IMG/VR virus record: IMGVR_UViG_3300030098_006729
Span: 6,286-52,641 of that record
Direction: 5' to 3' (one strand)
Length of the DNA: 46,356 nucleotides
DNA from: a virus
The notes beneath the pieces are model-generated. The model ran no database searches, was not told where the DNA came from, and worked only from the letters and a program-made list of their open reading frames with translations. The translations under genes and the position numbers were made by a program. Each line of letters starts with the position of its first letter. Position 1 is the stretch's first letter. Positions 4,534 through 9,420 of the stretch are shown one piece after another.

Positions 4534-5507
4534 AAACAGCACTGATAACAGGGATTACGGGACAAGACGGATCCTATTTAGCGGAATTGCTATTAAATAA
4601 AGGCTACAAAGTCGTAGGTGTTAAAAGACGCACATCGCTAATAGCCACAGATCGTATTGATAATATTTTTAATGATCCCGACCTGATTATGAATTTTGAT
4701 TTGGTCTATGGAAATATGAATGATTCAGGATGCCTTCACCGTCTTTTAATTGAACATAAGCCGGATGAAATATACAATCTTGCCGCCCAGTCTCATGTGC
4801 GTGTTTCTTTTGAAACCCCAGAAGAAACAACAGAATATGTTGCTATGGGTACACTACGTCTTTTGGAAGCATATAGAAATATTTGTCCCGAGGCAAAGTT
4901 TTATCAAGCGTCTTCATCCGAAATGTTTGGCGATAACCCTGAGAACCCGCAGAGTGAAACTACAAGACTTATGCCTGCGAGCCCTTATGCTTGCGCGAAG
5001 GTATATGCTCACAATCTTTGTAGAAATTACAGAGAAAGCTATGGACTTCACATTTCCAGTGGTATTCTTTTTAATCACGAATCTCCACGCCGTGGAGAGA
5101 CATTTGTCACCCGTAAAATTACCCAAGCAGCCGCGAATATAAAAATGGGCATACAAGATGACCTATTATTAGGTAACCTCGATGCTAAGAGAGACTGGGG
5201 CTTTGCAGGGGATTATGTGAAGGCAATGTGGCTCATGACACAACAGCAAACACCCGATGATTATGTTGTCGCGACAGGTGAAACTCACACAGTTAGAGAA
5301 TTTCTACAAGTTGTTTTTGATTATGCTGGACTTGACATAGACAAATATGTTAAGATTGATGAAAGACTTTTTAGACCTCACGAGGTTCCACTTTTGCTTG
5401 GTGATGCCACTAAGGCAAAAGAAAAGCTTGGCTGGGAACCAAAAGTAGACTTTGAGGGTCTTGCAAAGATGATGTATGACGCTGACTTAAGGGCACTATC
5501 AAAATGA
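4530..5507 (+). CDS. gmd: GDP-mannose 4,6-dehydratase
   Basis: 325 residues, very close to the Gmd family. [14 protein letters not shown] at the N-terminus is the NADP-binding loop; [31 protein letters not shown] (catalytic Ser/Thr and Glu region), [12 protein letters not shown] (Tyr-x3-Lys) and [19 protein letters not shown] follow in the usual order. It converts GDP-mannose to GDP-4-keto-6-deoxymannose, the branch point to fucose, rhamnose, perosamine and colitose. No mannose-1-phosphate guanylyltransferase gene is in the window, so GDP-mannose must come from the host or from upstream genes. Start ATG 4530 overlaps the preceding stop (ATGA), showing tight translational coupling. Confidence 0.95.
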
Positions 5508-5833
5508 GAAGAGTAAGTAAGCCTTGGGGGTATGAAATAATATGGGCTGAAACCGCAGATTATGTAGGCAAGATTCTGCATATTAATGCAGGACACAGAC
5601 TTTCAAAACAATATCATAAAATAAAAGAAGAAACTCTTTATGTTTTAAGTGGGGTACTATGTAATTACGGTGAAAATGAAGAGATTGAGCGTATTTACCC
5701 CGGCGAAGCTTTTCATGTTATACCAAACCAGATCCACCGTTTTGGTGCCCTTGAAAACGATGTAGAAGTCGTTGAGGTCAGTACACCACATTTGAATGAT
5801 GTTGTCAGACTTGATGATGATTATTCAAGATAA
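5504..5833 (+). CDS. Cupin protein similar to type II phosphomannose isomerase domain
   Basis: 109 residues forming one cupin barrel. [11 protein letters not shown] at residues 4-14, [21 protein letters not shown] near 31-51 and PNQIHRFGA near 85 match the C-terminal isomerase domain of ManC/PMI type II proteins. The metal ligands expected from the fold, His of QYH, Glu of KEET and His of IHR, are present. It could interconvert fructose-6-P and mannose-6-P to raise the GDP-mannose supply for Gmd, or it could act as a sugar 3,5-epimerase; the first fits the sequence better. It is the last gene of the sugar operon, overlaps gmd by ATGA, and is followed by a promoter for the next transcription unit. 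Confidence 0.8.
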
Positions 5834-5862
5834 TTGAAAAATACTAACTTATGTGTTATTAT
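5834..5862 (+). promoter_or_regulatory. Sigma70-type promoter with extended -10
   Basis: TTGAAA at 5834-5839, exactly 17 bases of spacer, then TATTAT at 5857-5862, preceded by TGT so that the -10 reads TGTTATTAT (extended -10). It sits in the 52-base gap after the sugar operon, 23 bases before the ATG at 5886, with AAAGGAGA at 5873-5880 as ribosome binding site. A host-polymerase promoter here would drive the small genes and the late sigma factor. A second promoter of the same form is at 40787. Confidence 0.68.
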
Positions 5863-5885
5863 ACAAATATTAAAAGGAGATACAC

Positions 5886-6158
5886 ATGCAACTTTCAGAC
5901 CAAGCGCTTGGAGCACTTATGCTTGCGCTACAAAACTCGCTCTTAAATCAAACGGATATTGTTCCAGTATTAAAAGAGTTTAACTTTACAGCTACAGATG
6001 ATGGTCTCGTTGTAGAGAACCCCCCCGTTGTTGATATGGGTGAAACCGCCACCGACACTGGGGGTGCTGTCTTTGATGCTTATATAGATGCAATTGAAGA
6101 GCCCAAAGTTCAAGATAGTGAGTTATGGGACGATTCATACATGGAAGACGGTTGTTAG
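5886..6158 (+). CDS. Conserved hypothetical small acidic protein
   Basis: 90 residues, no function recognised. The first 35 residues (LSDQALGALMLALQNSLLNQ and TDIVPVLKEF) look like two amphipathic helices; a short segment with ENPPVVDMGE follows, and the C-terminal third is rich in Asp and Glu. I believe similar short proteins occur in other marine T4-like phages near regulatory genes, but this is from memory and not checked. It has a strong ribosome binding site (AAAGGAGA, 5 bases before ATG) and is the first gene after the promoter at 5834. It may be an early or middle protein that binds a host factor; nothing in the sequence proves this. Confidence 0.7.
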   Translation: MQLSDQALGALMLALQNSLLNQTDIVPVLKEFNFTATDDGLVVENPPVVDMGETATDTGGAVFDAYIDAIEEPKVQDSELWDDSYMEDGC

Positions 6159-6159
6159 T

Positions 6160-6432
6160 TTGCCTAAATATGTTTATAAATGTTTGGAATGTGAAGAAAT
6201 CTATGAAGTAGTTCACGCTTTTAGTGAGACAAAATTTCATTGTTCCGAGGTAAATAAACAAAGTGAATGTGAGGGTTTTTCTACTTTAGAAAGAATACCT
6301 CAATCGATTAATTTTGTTAAAAAACAAAAAAAGAAAGTACAAGTAGGACAAATTGTAGACAACTTTATTAAAGACACCAAAAAAGAAGTCGAAGAATATA
6401 AAGAAGAAATGATCAACTGGAAACCTGAATAA
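6160..6432 (+). CDS. FmdB-like zinc-ribbon protein (TTG start)
   Basis: About 90 residues when started at TTG 6160, one base after the upstream stop. This gives the N-terminus MPKYVYKCLECEEIYEVVH, which is the usual beginning of FmdB-type zinc ribbons. The first metal pair is CLEC; the second is HCSEVNKQSEC, with a longer spacing than the usual CxxC. The C-terminal half is a charged, Lys/Glu-rich helix (KKEVEEYKEEM). A longer form from ATG 6088 would run through the previous gene in another frame and is less likely. A purine-rich GGAAGACGG lies just upstream of the TTG. The function is unknown; its place just before the late sigma factor makes a role in transcription possible. Its stop overlaps the next ATG by one base. 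Confidence 0.72.
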   Translation: MPKYVYKCLECEEIYEVVHAFSETKFHCSEVNKQSECEGFSTLERIPQSINFVKKQKKKVQVGQIVDNFIKDTKKEVEEYKEEMINWKPE

Positions 6433-6731
6433 TGTCCATATTTTTAATAATAACATTCATACTATCATTGACACTCAATGTGCTATTGATTTGGTATGTC
6501 CGAAAGGTTCAAGTTGATTATATTTTATACCTAAGAGATAATTTAGAAGAGTTTGCTTATATGCATAATCAATTCACTGAACATATAGATGAAGTATATA
6601 ATATGGAAATGTACTTTGGTGATCAATCTTTGTCTAAATTATTAGAGCACTCAAGGTTTGTAAGTGAGCAAACACAACAATATTTAGATGTTTTACGAGG
6701 GTTAGATTTTGAAGAAGATGAAGAAGAATAA
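6432..6731 (+). CDS. Small membrane-anchored protein
   Basis: 99 residues. Residues 3-22 (IFLIITFILSLTLNVLLIWY) are a clear transmembrane helix followed by positive charges, suggesting the N-terminus faces out or is a short anchor and the rest is cytoplasmic. The remainder is a long charged helix, probably coiled-coil, ending in a run of acidic residues (DFEEDEEE). No family recognised. TAATG overlap with the zinc-ribbon gene and two bases before the sigma factor gene place it firmly in the early/middle operon. Many phages carry such proteins of unknown role at this position. Confidence 0.75.
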   Translation: MSIFLIITFILSLTLNVLLIWYVRKVQVDYILYLRDNLEEFAYMHNQFTEHIDEVYNMEMYFGDQSLSKLLEHSRFVSEQTQQYLDVLRGLDFEEDEEE

Positions 6732-6733
6732 TT

Positions 6734-7423
6734 ATGCCGAGAAAACGAAAAGCAGGTAAGCATTATTTTACCAAGGATCACGAAAACGCAATTATTGACT
6801 ATGTTGCCACCGATGATCAAAAGATAAGAACCCAACTATACATAGACTGGATAGGTCCAGCCTTTGATGAGATGGTGGATAAGATTGTATACACTTATAA
6901 ATTTACTACTCTCCCAAACATCGATGCGCTCAAAGACGAGTGCAAAGTCTGGCTGACAACAATCCTTGACAAATATGATCCAAGCAAGGGATCAAAAGCA
7001 TTCTCATATTTTAGTGTAATAACGAAAAACTGGTTTATTCACAAAGTAAAGAAGAATGCTAAGAGAGCCAGAACCGAGGTTCTTTATGATGAAATGCCAA
7101 AAGAGGTTGATAACGAACTTGTTACAACCAGTAACCCATATCACGAAGAACGAGAGGAATATGAGTTTTGGCAGTCCCTGTGGGGAGAGATAGAAAGCTG
7201 GGACACTGGAAATCTAAAAGAAAATGAGAAAAAAGTATTAGAAGCAATTAAAATATTGCTCGACTCAATTGATGAAGATACGATGATATATAACAAAAAA
7301 GCAATCTATCTTTATTTGCGAGAACTTACCGGACTTAATACAAAGCAAATTGTTAACAATCTTAATAAGCTTCGTGTCAAATACAGAATTTTTAAGAAAA
7401 ATTGGGTCAATGGCAAAATATAA
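6734..7423 (+). CDS. 55: Late transcription sigma factor, T4 gp55-like
   Basis: 229 residues. The stretch from residue 66 to 107 holds the gp55 signature: LKDECKVWL, then YDPSKGSKAFSYF, then ITKNWFIHKVKK, which corresponds to sigma region 2 that opens the -10 element. T4 gp55 is 185 residues and recognises only a TATAAATA-type -10 at late promoters, together with the sliding clamp and gp33. Here the C-terminal 60 residues (AIYLYLRELTGLNTKQIVNNLNKLRVKY) look like an additional helix-turn-helix. The acidic-hydrophobic clamp-binding tail of T4 gp55 is not evident; the protein ends in basic residues. It is the last gene of the 5886 operon and is immediately upstream of the structural block it would control. 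Confidence 0.88.
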   Translation: MPRKRKAGKHYFTKDHENAIIDYVATDDQKIRTQLYIDWIGPAFDEMVDKIVYTYKFTTLPNIDALKDECKVWLTTILDKYDPSKGSKAFSYFSVITKNWFIHKVKKNAKRARTEVLYDEMPKEVDNELVTTSNPYHEEREEYEFWQSLWGEIESWDTGNLKENEKKVLEAIKILLDSIDEDTMIYNKKAIYLYLRELTGLNTKQIVNNLNKLRVKYRIFKKNWVNGKI

Positions 7424-7447
7424 GCTTGATAACCTCTAATTAATATT

Positions 7448-7453
7448 GGAGGG
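7448..7453 (+). promoter_or_regulatory. Strong ribosome binding site for the Cys-rich peptide
   Basis: GGAGGG seven bases before ATG 7461, in a stretch with no other candidate start in range. This near-perfect Shine-Dalgarno is the main argument that the 20-codon frame is translated. Confidence 0.6.
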
Positions 7454-7460
7454 CTGAGTC

Positions 7461-7523
7461 ATGGAAAAATGCGCCTGCTGCGGCTGCGCCACACCTTGTC
7501 AGTGTGAATGTTGCTGTAAGTGA
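7461..7523 (+). CDS. 20-residue cysteine-rich microprotein (nine Cys)
   Basis: The frame reads MEKCACCGCATPCQCECCCK and stops at TGA 7521-7523. Nine of 20 residues are cysteine (4, 6, 7, 9, 13, 15, 17, 18, 19), giving overlapping CxC, CC and CCC motifs like those in metallothionein clusters. It starts at ATG with GGAGGG seven bases upstream, in an otherwise empty gap between the late sigma factor and the structural block. Both TGC and TGT are used, so the Cys content is not a simple nucleotide repeat. Likely roles are metal binding (Zn, Cu) or thiol chemistry; no homologue comes to mind. Too short for standard gene callers. Translation is inferred from the ribosome binding site and composition. 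Confidence 0.62.
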   Translation: MEKCACCGCATPCQCECCCK

Positions 7524-7529
7524 TTAAAA

Positions 7530-7592
7530 GTGCTCCATAGTAGTTAGCGATACTGTAAATAAATAAAAGTGCTTCTAATTATTATGGAGCAT
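7530..7592 (+). promoter_or_regulatory. 18-bp hairpin covering the RBS of the next gene
   Basis: Bases 7530-7547 (GTGCTCCATAGTAGTTAG) pair without interruption with 7575-7592 (CTAATTATTATGGAGCAT): 15 Watson-Crick pairs and 3 G-U pairs, loop of 27 bases (7548-7574). The 3' arm contains GGAG (7586-7589), the only Shine-Dalgarno for ATG 7598, so the folded RNA should block translation. There is no U-run after the stem, so it is not a standard terminator. A ten-base direct repeat, TAAAAGTGCT, occurs at 7525-7534 and in the loop at 7564-7573. The layout matches T4 gene e, where early read-through RNA is folded shut and late RNA starts inside the hairpin. Confidence 0.75.
7554..7561 (+). promoter_or_regulatory. 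Candidate T4-like late promoter in hairpin loop
   Basis: TGTAAATA matches the T4 late consensus TATAAATA at 7 of 8 positions. A start about 13 bases after its first base (near 7567) would give a transcript lacking the 5' arm of the hairpin, leaving the GGAG of the 7598 gene open. No -35 is needed by gp55-type factors. The matrix for this phage is unknown and AT-rich DNA gives chance matches, so this is a candidate supported mainly by its position. Confidence 0.45.
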
Positions 7593-7597
7593 ATATC

Positions 7598-7882
7598 ATG
7601 AAAAAAACAGACAACTATCTTGACGAAGCGATTGAAAACATCAGAAAAGATCGAGAGATTACAAAAGATCTGTTAAACGATTTAATTGTATACTTGAGCA
7701 AAGACGAAGCACGCCACACGGAAGTCGGCACCGTCGCAGCCAAATATGTTGAAACATTGCAAAGGTCCAATGAGCAGCTTGTTAAGCTTGTTACATTATT
7801 GGAAAAGAAAAAAAACACATCTGTTGGCTTAACCGAGGATGATAAGTCGGAAATCTTTGACTTACTCAATGGAGATCACTGA
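7598..7882 (+). CDS. Small helical protein, first gene of the structural block
   Basis: 94 residues, predicted almost fully alpha-helical: an N-terminal helix (YLDEAIENIRKDREITKD), a central one ending in YLSKDEARH, and VAAKYVETLQRSNEQLVKLVTLLEKKK, which has heptad-like spacing. A short acidic tail follows. I do not recognise it with certainty; its size, helicity and the RSNEQLVK-type helix would suit a small terminase subunit (T4 gp16 role) or an assembly helper, but the large terminase is not in this window. Its ribosome binding site GGAG is inside the 7530-7592 hairpin. The stop overlaps the next ATG as TGATG, so its translation should control or feed the next gene. Confidence 0.75.
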   Translation: MKKTDNYLDEAIENIRKDREITKDLLNDLIVYLSKDEARHTEVGTVAAKYVETLQRSNEQLVKLVTLLEKKKNTSVGLTEDDKSEIFDLLNGDH

Positions 7883-9420
7883 TGTCTGATCAGGAAAGAA
7901 GCGAAAAAATAGAAAAACTACAACAAGAATTGAACGAGGATTATCAATACTCTCTTTTCTTTGATGCGCTTATAGACATTTTTTCTGATTCTCAAGGCAC
8001 AGTAACAGGAAAATTAGACCCACAAGCTGGCGCAGTGCAAACAAGTACATTTAATGATGTTATAAATGCCAACGCTCATTTAAGGCACATGCAAACATTG
8101 GTTGCGAACAACCACAACAAATCACTCGCTGGTTTGTATGCCATGGTAATGCAAAAACACGAGGTTTTGTTAGATCAGCAAGACTCCGAAGTTGAAAACA
8201 TACCAGCGCCCCGAACCAATTCTGGTTGGGGATATGCTTTAAACAAACTATCTCGTGGTCTCAGCGTTCTTTCAAACATTGGCGAACAGGATCCTCCCCC
8301 AACTCTTAATGATATTATTGATGAGGCTTCAAGCGGATTGGAAATATTAGATTTTCCCGAATATTACATTTATGTATTTTCAAATATTGCAGATAACAAT
8401 CCAGTGCCGACCGTGGTAGAACAAAATCGCACAATTGAGGGTCGGAGTCTTGGTCCCATTCAAATTACCGCAGACAGGACCACTATAGAAAGAAAATTTG
8501 TTAATGTAGATGCATATCCAAAAGCCATGATAACATCTAAACGATTAAGGGATGAAGAAGAGTTAACCTCTGGAACAATTGTTAGGGTATCATTTGAGGC
8601 TTCAGATAATAGTCAAAAATTAATTATTCAAGAAATTGTTGAGAATTCTACAGTATTCACAGAGTTGACAATGAGATCCCTCGGTGCAAGAAGTGCCATC
8701 TTAACAAGCGAACTTTGTAGAACAGACTCTGCTTTAACAAACACAACGCATGCAATCGGCGATGTTATTGGTGAGGAAAGCAATGTTCCTGAATTAAGAA
8801 TTGTTGACAATATAATTTATCCATATACACAAGGTGCCACTGTAAACTTGGTTGTTTTTGCTCCTGGAAGTGTTTACACTTATGATGATTTAAGCAAACG
8901 ATCATATCTTTATAAGAAAATACAAGAACTTGCCCCGACAGACACTATGTTTTTATTACCAGCCTCCAATCCCCCCAACGAGGTTGGTATTAATTGGACA
9001 AATATTGAAAACGCAATTAATACTTTAGAAACCGAGCACAATATAACATTTAATTCTAAATCAGTCGCCGCCTTTGAGTCGGGTATTTTTGGATTAGGAA
9101 ATGCTATTATAGGCGCTCCAAATGGGTATTTCGATGGTGGTCTGTTTTTGGCAGAGCCCCGCCCTTTTGCGCCGACTCAAACTAATACTTTCGTCAATGC
9201 ATTGACGCGAAAAGGATATAGTGGAAGAGTTCATGTGGAATATAACATTAGTAATTGGGACGCAGCGGTGGACGGACGTAACTGGCCCTCTTTTATATCA
9301 ACAATGAATGAAGGGGCGGGAGTCGTTTTTCCTCCTCCATCTAGCGGGCAAAATCCTAATCAAATATTAGAATCTGTTTTAAACAAAGTAAACAATCTGC
9401 CTTTTAATTTTACATCTTAA
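7882..9420 (+). CDS. Putative virion protein with possible OB-fold segment
   Basis: 512 residues. The first 110 residues are helical (KIEKLQQELNEDYQYSLFF; then LRHMQTLVANNHNKSLAGLYAMV). The region around residues 210-260 (YPKAMITSKRLRDEEELTSG followed by TIVRVSF) looks like a beta-barrel/OB-type segment as found in baseplate hub proteins such as T4 gp5. The rest alternates beta-strand-like stretches with a Pro/Asn-rich tail. No catalytic motif. Its place directly before a cell-wall peptidase and ahead of gp25 and gp6 suggests a baseplate hub or tail-tip component; that is inference from order. Translationally coupled to the gene before it. Confidence 0.6.
   Translation: MSDQERSEKIEKLQQELNEDYQYSLFFDALIDIFSDSQGTVTGKLDPQAGAVQTSTFNDVINANAHLRHMQTLVANNHNKSLAGLYAMVMQKHEVLLDQQDSEVENIPAPRTNSGWGYALNKLSRGLSVLSNIGEQDPPPTLNDIIDEASSGLEILDFPEYYIYVFSNIADNNPVPTVVEQNRTIEGRSLGPIQITADRTTIERKFVNVDAYPKAMITSKRLRDEEELTSGTIVRVSFEASDNSQKLIIQEIVENSTVFTELTMRSLGARSAILTSELCRTDSALTNTTHAIGDVIGEESNVPELRIVDNIIYPYTQGATVNLVVFAPGSVYTYDDLSKRSYLYKKIQELAPTDTMFLLPASNPPNEVGINWTNIENAINTLETEHNITFNSKSVAAFESGIFGLGNAIIGAPNGYFDGGLFLAEPRPFAPTQTNTFVNALTRKGYSGRVHVEYNISNWDAAVDGRNWPSFISTMNEGAGVVFPPPSSGQNPNQILESVLNKVNNLPFNFTS

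Follow-up and report, generated by a model that had tools for sequence, protein, structure and literature searches.

A hairpin covering a ribosome-binding site beside the late sigma factor gene of an uncultured marine phage: a possible translational lock, apparently made by a template switch

RESULTS

Directly after the late sigma factor gene, a long hairpin buries a ribosome-binding site

How might a phage use a gene whose Shine-Dalgarno (SD) sequence is buried in a hairpin, when that gene adjoins the one for its late sigma factor, and how could such a hairpin have come about? For one locus of this kind, in an uncultured marine phage, we computed the fold and the occlusion of the SD, the statistics of candidate promoter motifs, the distribution of the hairpin among relatives, and the mosaic structure of the sequence. 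The window (the whole stretch of viral DNA that was analyzed, 46,356 nucleotides) contains the following features at this locus:

5834 to 5862, + strand: sigma-70-like (early) promoter, TTGAAA-17-TATTAT (10/12 match, TG before the second hexamer)
6734 to 7423, + strand: gene for the late sigma factor (T4 gp55-like; phrog_234, E 2.4e-6)
7530 to 7547, + strand: 5' arm of the long hairpin, a reverse-complement copy of the 3' arm
7575 to 7592, + strand: 3' arm of the long hairpin, located by the fold
7586 to 7589, + strand: SD (GGAG) of the 7598 gene, buried inside the 3' arm
7598 to 7882, + strand: gene for a 94-amino-acid all-helical protein, directly after the late sigma factor gene throughout the group
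7882 to 9420, + strand: next gene, whose start overlaps the stop of the 7598 gene (TGATG) and which has its own GGAG upstream

The long stem comprises 18 pairs, three of them G-U, around a loop of 27 nt, and the two A-to-G changes that distinguish the 5' arm from an exact copy of the 3' arm both retain G-U pairs. An earlier, sequence-only reading of the window had described this stem, its loop, the GGAG, and an octamer in the loop (TGTAAATA, 7554 to 7561), all of which lie exactly where it had placed them. It had also proposed a comparison with shuffled sequences, which the hairpin withstood: the minimum free energy of the 82-nt segment is -26.6 kcal/mol, that of the shuffles -9.6 ± 2.5 (z, -6.8), and none of 200 shuffles was as stable. 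Computed folds likewise bore out its claim that the hairpin hides the SD of the 7598 gene, which in the read-through RNA is sequestered by a stable helix. The cost of opening the SD in that RNA was 16.1 kcal/mol in the window and 16.2 kcal/mol in the relative L003; in relatives without the long stem it was 6.7 to 8.2 kcal/mol, and in an RNA beginning at 7586, inside the hairpin, 0.4 kcal/mol. A search of positions 5400 to 8200 against Rfam gave no match.

Three elements of this leader had escaped the earlier reading: a 20-codon open reading frame (mini-ORF) whose stop lies 6 nt ahead of the stem, a 25-nt direct repeat (7510 to 7534 and 7549 to 7573) that includes the loop octamer, and a second stem of 7 bp (7569 to 7575 with 7586 to 7592) that is mutually exclusive with the long one. 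Its proposal of read-through RNA from position 5834 is possible, since the promoter there is sigma-70-like and no + strand terminator was called between it and position 7900; this promoter is the likely source of such RNA. L086 has a similar site, equally far from its sigma gene.

Many marine phage contigs encode both the 7598 product and the late sigma factor. The two genes abut or overlap in most of the group and are presumably cotranscribed, with no promoter between them; in four relatives (L041, L060, L062, and L125), an insert of about 1.1 kb separates the 7598 homologue from the sigma gene. Weak syntenic relatives of the 7598 gene were found in Flavobacterium phage immuto and Microcystis phage Mel-JY01. 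The protein had no convincing match among PHROGs, Pfam, and PDB profiles, and its structure model (pLDDT 74.5, pTM 0.39) had none at an E value of ≤0.001 in a viral library. An identification as small terminase, suggested by a motif, was dropped, as only two members matched phrog_6299, with an E value of 0.011 at best. Gene content at the position of 7882 to 9420 differs between relatives. Codons 21 to 50 of the 7598 gene (7660 to 7747 in the window) vary little synonymously among close relatives, with 0.16 to 0.24 codon differences, against 0.43 to 0.62 in codons 51 to 90 and 0.34 to 0.60 over most of the sigma gene, which may reflect a hidden DNA or RNA signal or recombination.

The octamer in the loop is a duplicated gene end

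The sequence-only reading had taken the loop octamer for a T4-type late promoter from which an open RNA begins. Its resemblance to TATAAATA is real (7/8), and a promoter at this place would in principle be rightly positioned. The octamer belongs, however, to the second copy of the direct repeat:

7549 to 7573, + strand: direct repeat copy A2, containing the octamer TGTAAATA

It duplicates the sequence with which the mini-ORF ends, TGT AAA TAA, as seen in the relative L004. Sites with at most one mismatch to TATAAATA number 127 in the window, with 108 ± 10 expected, which is chance level. Neither TATAAATA (5 copies, 3.3 expected) nor TGTAAATA (1 copy, 1.3 expected) was enriched in 659 intergenic upstream regions, taken from L001 to L159, L237 to L316, and the window. 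Moreover, an RNA begun at the octamer would still form the small stem, with an SD opening cost of 4.1 kcal/mol. A T4-type late promoter TATAAATA inside the hairpin is thus not supported, and that the octamer starts the open RNA is extremely improbable.

A different motif is the putative late promoter of the group

In the same 659 regions, CTA[A/T]TTA was enriched 13- to 20-fold upstream of genes and in a strand-specific manner: CTATTTA occurred 97 times (4.9 expected; reverse complement, 3) and CTAATTA 69 times (5.3 expected; reverse complement, 5). The distance from its C to the start codon peaked sharply at 12 nt (23 cases, with 3 each at 11 and 13 nt) and again, broadly, at 22 to 32 nt. An SD was lacking in 28/29 genes with the motif 11 to 13 nt from the start and present in 89/97 genes with the motif at 22 to 32 nt. 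Because of this pattern of spacing and SDs, we read the motif as a promoter producing leaderless RNA or short leaders. The simplest interpretation would be a late promoter with the RNA start about 12 nt past the C; measured from that predicted start, the SD begins at +11 or later in most genes that have one. The 12-nt spacing to ATGs without an SD further predicts that the late mRNAs of the group are often leaderless. Our literature search returned no report of CTATTTA as a phage promoter, and the matches in the Felix O1 paper are terminator sequences.

The motif precedes the 7598 homologue in 32/130 relatives. It is present in nearly all of those with a post-sigma gap of at least 18 nt and in none in which the sigma gene and the 7598 homologue overlap or nearly abut. 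The window has it at 7436, 7575, 10521, 16035, and 36993, the first two lying at this locus:

7436 to 7442, + strand: CTAATTA, predicted late promoter of the mini-ORF, from the group-wide enrichment
7575 to 7582, + strand: CTAATTAT, predicted late promoter of the 7598 gene, from the group-wide motif statistics

At the former, the C lies 25 nt from the ATG of the mini-ORF, with a GGAGG at 7448 to 7452. The predicted RNA start of the latter falls at 7584 to 7587, inside the 3' arm; as this motif itself lies in the 3' arm, RNA from it would be without the 5' arm.

Relatives have a smaller, probably older hairpin around this motif

Where the long stem is absent, the leaders form a short hairpin whose loop carries the motif and whose 3' arm carries the SD. 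Its counterpart in the window is the second stem:

7569 to 7575, + strand: 5' side of the small ancestral hairpin, which pairs with 7586 to 7592 and excludes the long stem

The z scores of the short-hairpin fold were, for instance, -3.8 for L001 and -2.8 for both L011 and L014, while L009 and L013 were weak. In ten aligned leaders, 83% of the cells were paired, compared with 73.5 ± 2.0% in shuffled alignments (0/500) and 36 to 48% when the hairpin was slid along the alignment. Covariation was 0.316, compared with 0.192 ± 0.037 in the shuffled alignments, and exceeded 497/500 of them (3/500), a comparison in which related sequences may exceed shuffles without any structure. There is thus moderate support for a small hairpin conserved with some covariation, and this hairpin would preserve the core idea of the earlier reading, a late start within an SD-hiding hairpin, at other coordinates. 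Outside the leaders of 7598 homologues, promoter-in-loop hairpins were in no clear excess (mean, -2.45; permuted, -2.24 ± 0.15; 49/500). Strong hairpins with CTATTTA in the loop were seen at individual other late genes, upstream of 3561 in L245 (z, -6.2) and upstream of 11100 in L312 (z, -3.4).

A cysteine-rich mini-gene lies between the sigma gene and the hairpin

From the sigma stop to the 7598 start there are about 37 nt in the closest relatives (protein 92 to 96% identical) and 174 nt in the window, owing to an extra segment of about 137 nt, shared with L003/L165, that contains an SD, the mini-ORF, and the 5' portion of the hairpin. The contig of L004 begins within the mini-ORF, which is thus present there, and lacks the long stem. 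The mini-ORF is as follows:

7461 to 7523, + strand: 20-amino-acid cysteine-rich mini-gene, MEKCACCGCATPCQCECCCK

The mini-gene is absent from the closest relatives, present in L003 and L004, and found at another site in larger relatives. Members of its family occur in the window, L160, L162 to L165, L228, L317 to L322, L324, L325, L327, L329, L331, and L332; they are invariably 20 amino acids long and follow the pattern M.KC.CCGC.xPC.C.CCCK (C4 is R in L331), with a pN/pS of 0.00 to 0.18 in the seven compared that had synonymous changes. Ahead of the mini-genes lie a CTA.TTA-like motif and GGAGG. In 7/8 of the mini-gene records tested, the same virus encodes a late sigma factor 60 to 63% identical, and in those records the mini-gene precedes tRNA-Asn or tmRNA genes. 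A tblastn search of cultured phages gave no match, a result of little weight with low-complexity filtering on, and the DNA pattern had four scattered matches in bacterial genomes. Directly 3' of the mini-gene, an RNA-like element of about 95 nt, with three hairpins and paired changes (CG/UA), is conserved at L162:7689-7796, L164:3270-3371(-), L228:7810-7910, L321:171-275, and eight further sites (alignment A3); against Rfam it gave no match except the neighboring tRNA or tmRNA.

Since the coding sequence ends in CECCCK-stop directly ahead of the stem that buries the SD, ribosomes ending at 7521 to 7523, or pausing at cysteine codons, could open the base of the stem and so control the 7598 gene. 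By standard ribosome footprints, a terminating ribosome would reach about 7533; this would free only about 4 of the 18 pairs. The mini-protein is, besides, conserved at full length and not just in its cysteine tract, and elsewhere the mini-gene precedes tRNA or tmRNA genes without a long hairpin, so we regard such coupling or attenuation as very unlikely. Mycobacteria reportedly have polycysteine leader attenuators (Canestrari, 2020). The arrangement here shares with them a short reading frame that ends in a run of cysteines, behind which a structure covers the next SD; it differs in that the mini-protein is conserved whole and occurs elsewhere without the structure, which does not fit a mere leader.

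The stem begins so close to the mini-ORF stop (6 nt) that it could also serve to protect or delimit the 3' end of the mini-gene mRNA, the occlusion of the 7598 SD being incidental. No T-run follows the stem, which is therefore no intrinsic terminator, and none was called there; L004, furthermore, has the mini-ORF without the stem. A stabilizer or insulator is therefore most unlikely.

The long stem apparently arose recently and in one step

Among about 130 sequenced relatives, the long stem is limited to the window and L003/L165. When the viral collection was scanned for the arm sequence, L165 and the window's own record alone had both arms. Positions 7427 to 7740, approximately, are nearly identical between the window and L165 amid widely diverged flanks; the hairpin that they share is thus due to recent exchange or to common descent of this block, and not to long conservation. 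Just two nearly identical copies exist, too few to show covariation of the long stem or selection on it. The prediction that relatives conserve the stem pairs consequently fails for the long stem, which is the outcome the sequence-only reading had itself named as refuting, and holds for the shorter hairpin with CTA[A/T]TTA in its loop.

The sequence itself suggests how the long stem was made. Besides A2, it contains another copy of the repeat:

7510 to 7534, + strand: direct repeat copy A1 (mini-ORF end plus AAAAGTGCT), from the sequence and by comparison with L004

L004 has the order A-B, where A is GTTGCTGTAAATAATTAAAAGTGCT (the mini-ORF end) and B the SD region. The order in the window and L003 is A-B'-A-B, with A1 at 7510 to 7534, B' at 7530 to 7547, A2 at 7549 to 7573, and then B. 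A reverse-complement copy thus adjoins its source and is absent from the close, otherwise collinear L004. A single template switch apparently produced the long stem: in this replication copying error, B would have been copied backwards and copying then resumed upstream of A. The formal alternative is the opposite order, with the middle part lost in L004 by slippage between A1 and A2.

The hairpin as a proposed lock on the 7598 gene

We favor, with slightly better than even confidence, a translational lock: the hairpin would control the gene after the sigma gene by T4-like logic with a relocated promoter, and would be an enlarged form of the older hairpin. In RNA entering from the promoter at 5834 or 7436, the 18-bp stem would hide the SD; RNA from CTAATTAT would start at about 7584 to 7587, lack the 5' arm, and be open. 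The ancestor would have been a weaker hairpin such as relatives have, its loop holding this promoter and its 3' arm the SD. Insertion of the mini-gene, complete with a late-type promoter, between the sigma gene and the 7598 gene would have come first, and a template switch would then have copied the SD region backwards beside a repeat of the mini-gene end, enlarging the stem, which would silence the 7598 gene on early read-through RNA and mini-gene RNA alike. From sequence we infer that the motif is a promoter for the late sigma factor, where its RNA starts, how translation is affected, and in what order the events took place. A difficulty for the lock is that the predicted start puts the SD at the extreme 5' end of the RNA or clips it.

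As for the T4-like switch proposed earlier, the computed hiding of the SD and its predicted opening by an internal start stand, and the identity of the promoter does not. The accompanying rule, early RNA shut and late RNA open, is incomplete because of the second late-type motif at 7436 before the mini-ORF, which would give late transcripts still shut over the 7598 gene.

The main rival to the lock takes the long hairpin for a template-switch mutation that arose recently and has no regulatory role, harmless because the 7598 gene would be translated mainly from its own late transcript. Its very restricted distribution (the window and L003) agrees with such a neutral or tolerated scar, the A-B'-A-B structure accounts for the hairpin without selection, and many relatives cotranscribe the 7598 gene with the sigma gene and need no lock. 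Against this, the long stem reinforces an existing conserved occlusion, which is not a random place of origin, and the differences within the stem (two A-to-G and one C-to-T) all preserve pairing, although three changes prove little. On balance, a scar appears possible but rather unlikely.

DISCUSSION

Taken as a whole, the locus may be a regulatory switch caught at its origin, in which a single template switch, following the insertion of the mini-gene, turned a weak conserved hairpin with a non-T4 promoter into a strong lock; we put this forward tentatively, with less than even confidence. It suggests that late control by a start inside a hairpin has been reached with a non-T4 promoter in uncultured marine phages, and it offers a traceable case of a regulatory hairpin that could owe its origin to a replication error and not to pairing acquired stepwise. 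A motif with exact leaderless spacing would also make the late regulon of the group predictable from sequence.

In T4, the early RNA of genes e, soc, 49, and I-TevI forms structures that hide the SD, and late starts avoid them (PMC3014915, PMC2988022). The locus described here resembles these genes in that the SD is hidden in long transcripts, that the late RNA is predicted to lack the 5' strand, and that it is tied to a gp55-like late sigma factor. It differs in its promoter, which is CTA[A/T]TTA instead of TATAAATA and is situated in the 3' arm, in that late genes of this group are by prediction often leaderless, and in that the long stem is lineage specific. Given its different class of promoter and the lack of conservation of its long stem, the hairpin is better called a variant that would work like the T4 switch than a demonstrated member of that class.

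It has been proposed that RNA hairpins can originate by template switching (Monttinen and Loytynoja 2022, PMC8794818). The long hairpin shares with those cases a reverse-complement copy beside its source, an origin attributable to one event, a near-perfect stem, and known relatives without the hairpin; it differs from them in lying in a phage leader, at a ribosome-binding site, and in being accompanied by a 25-nt direct duplication.
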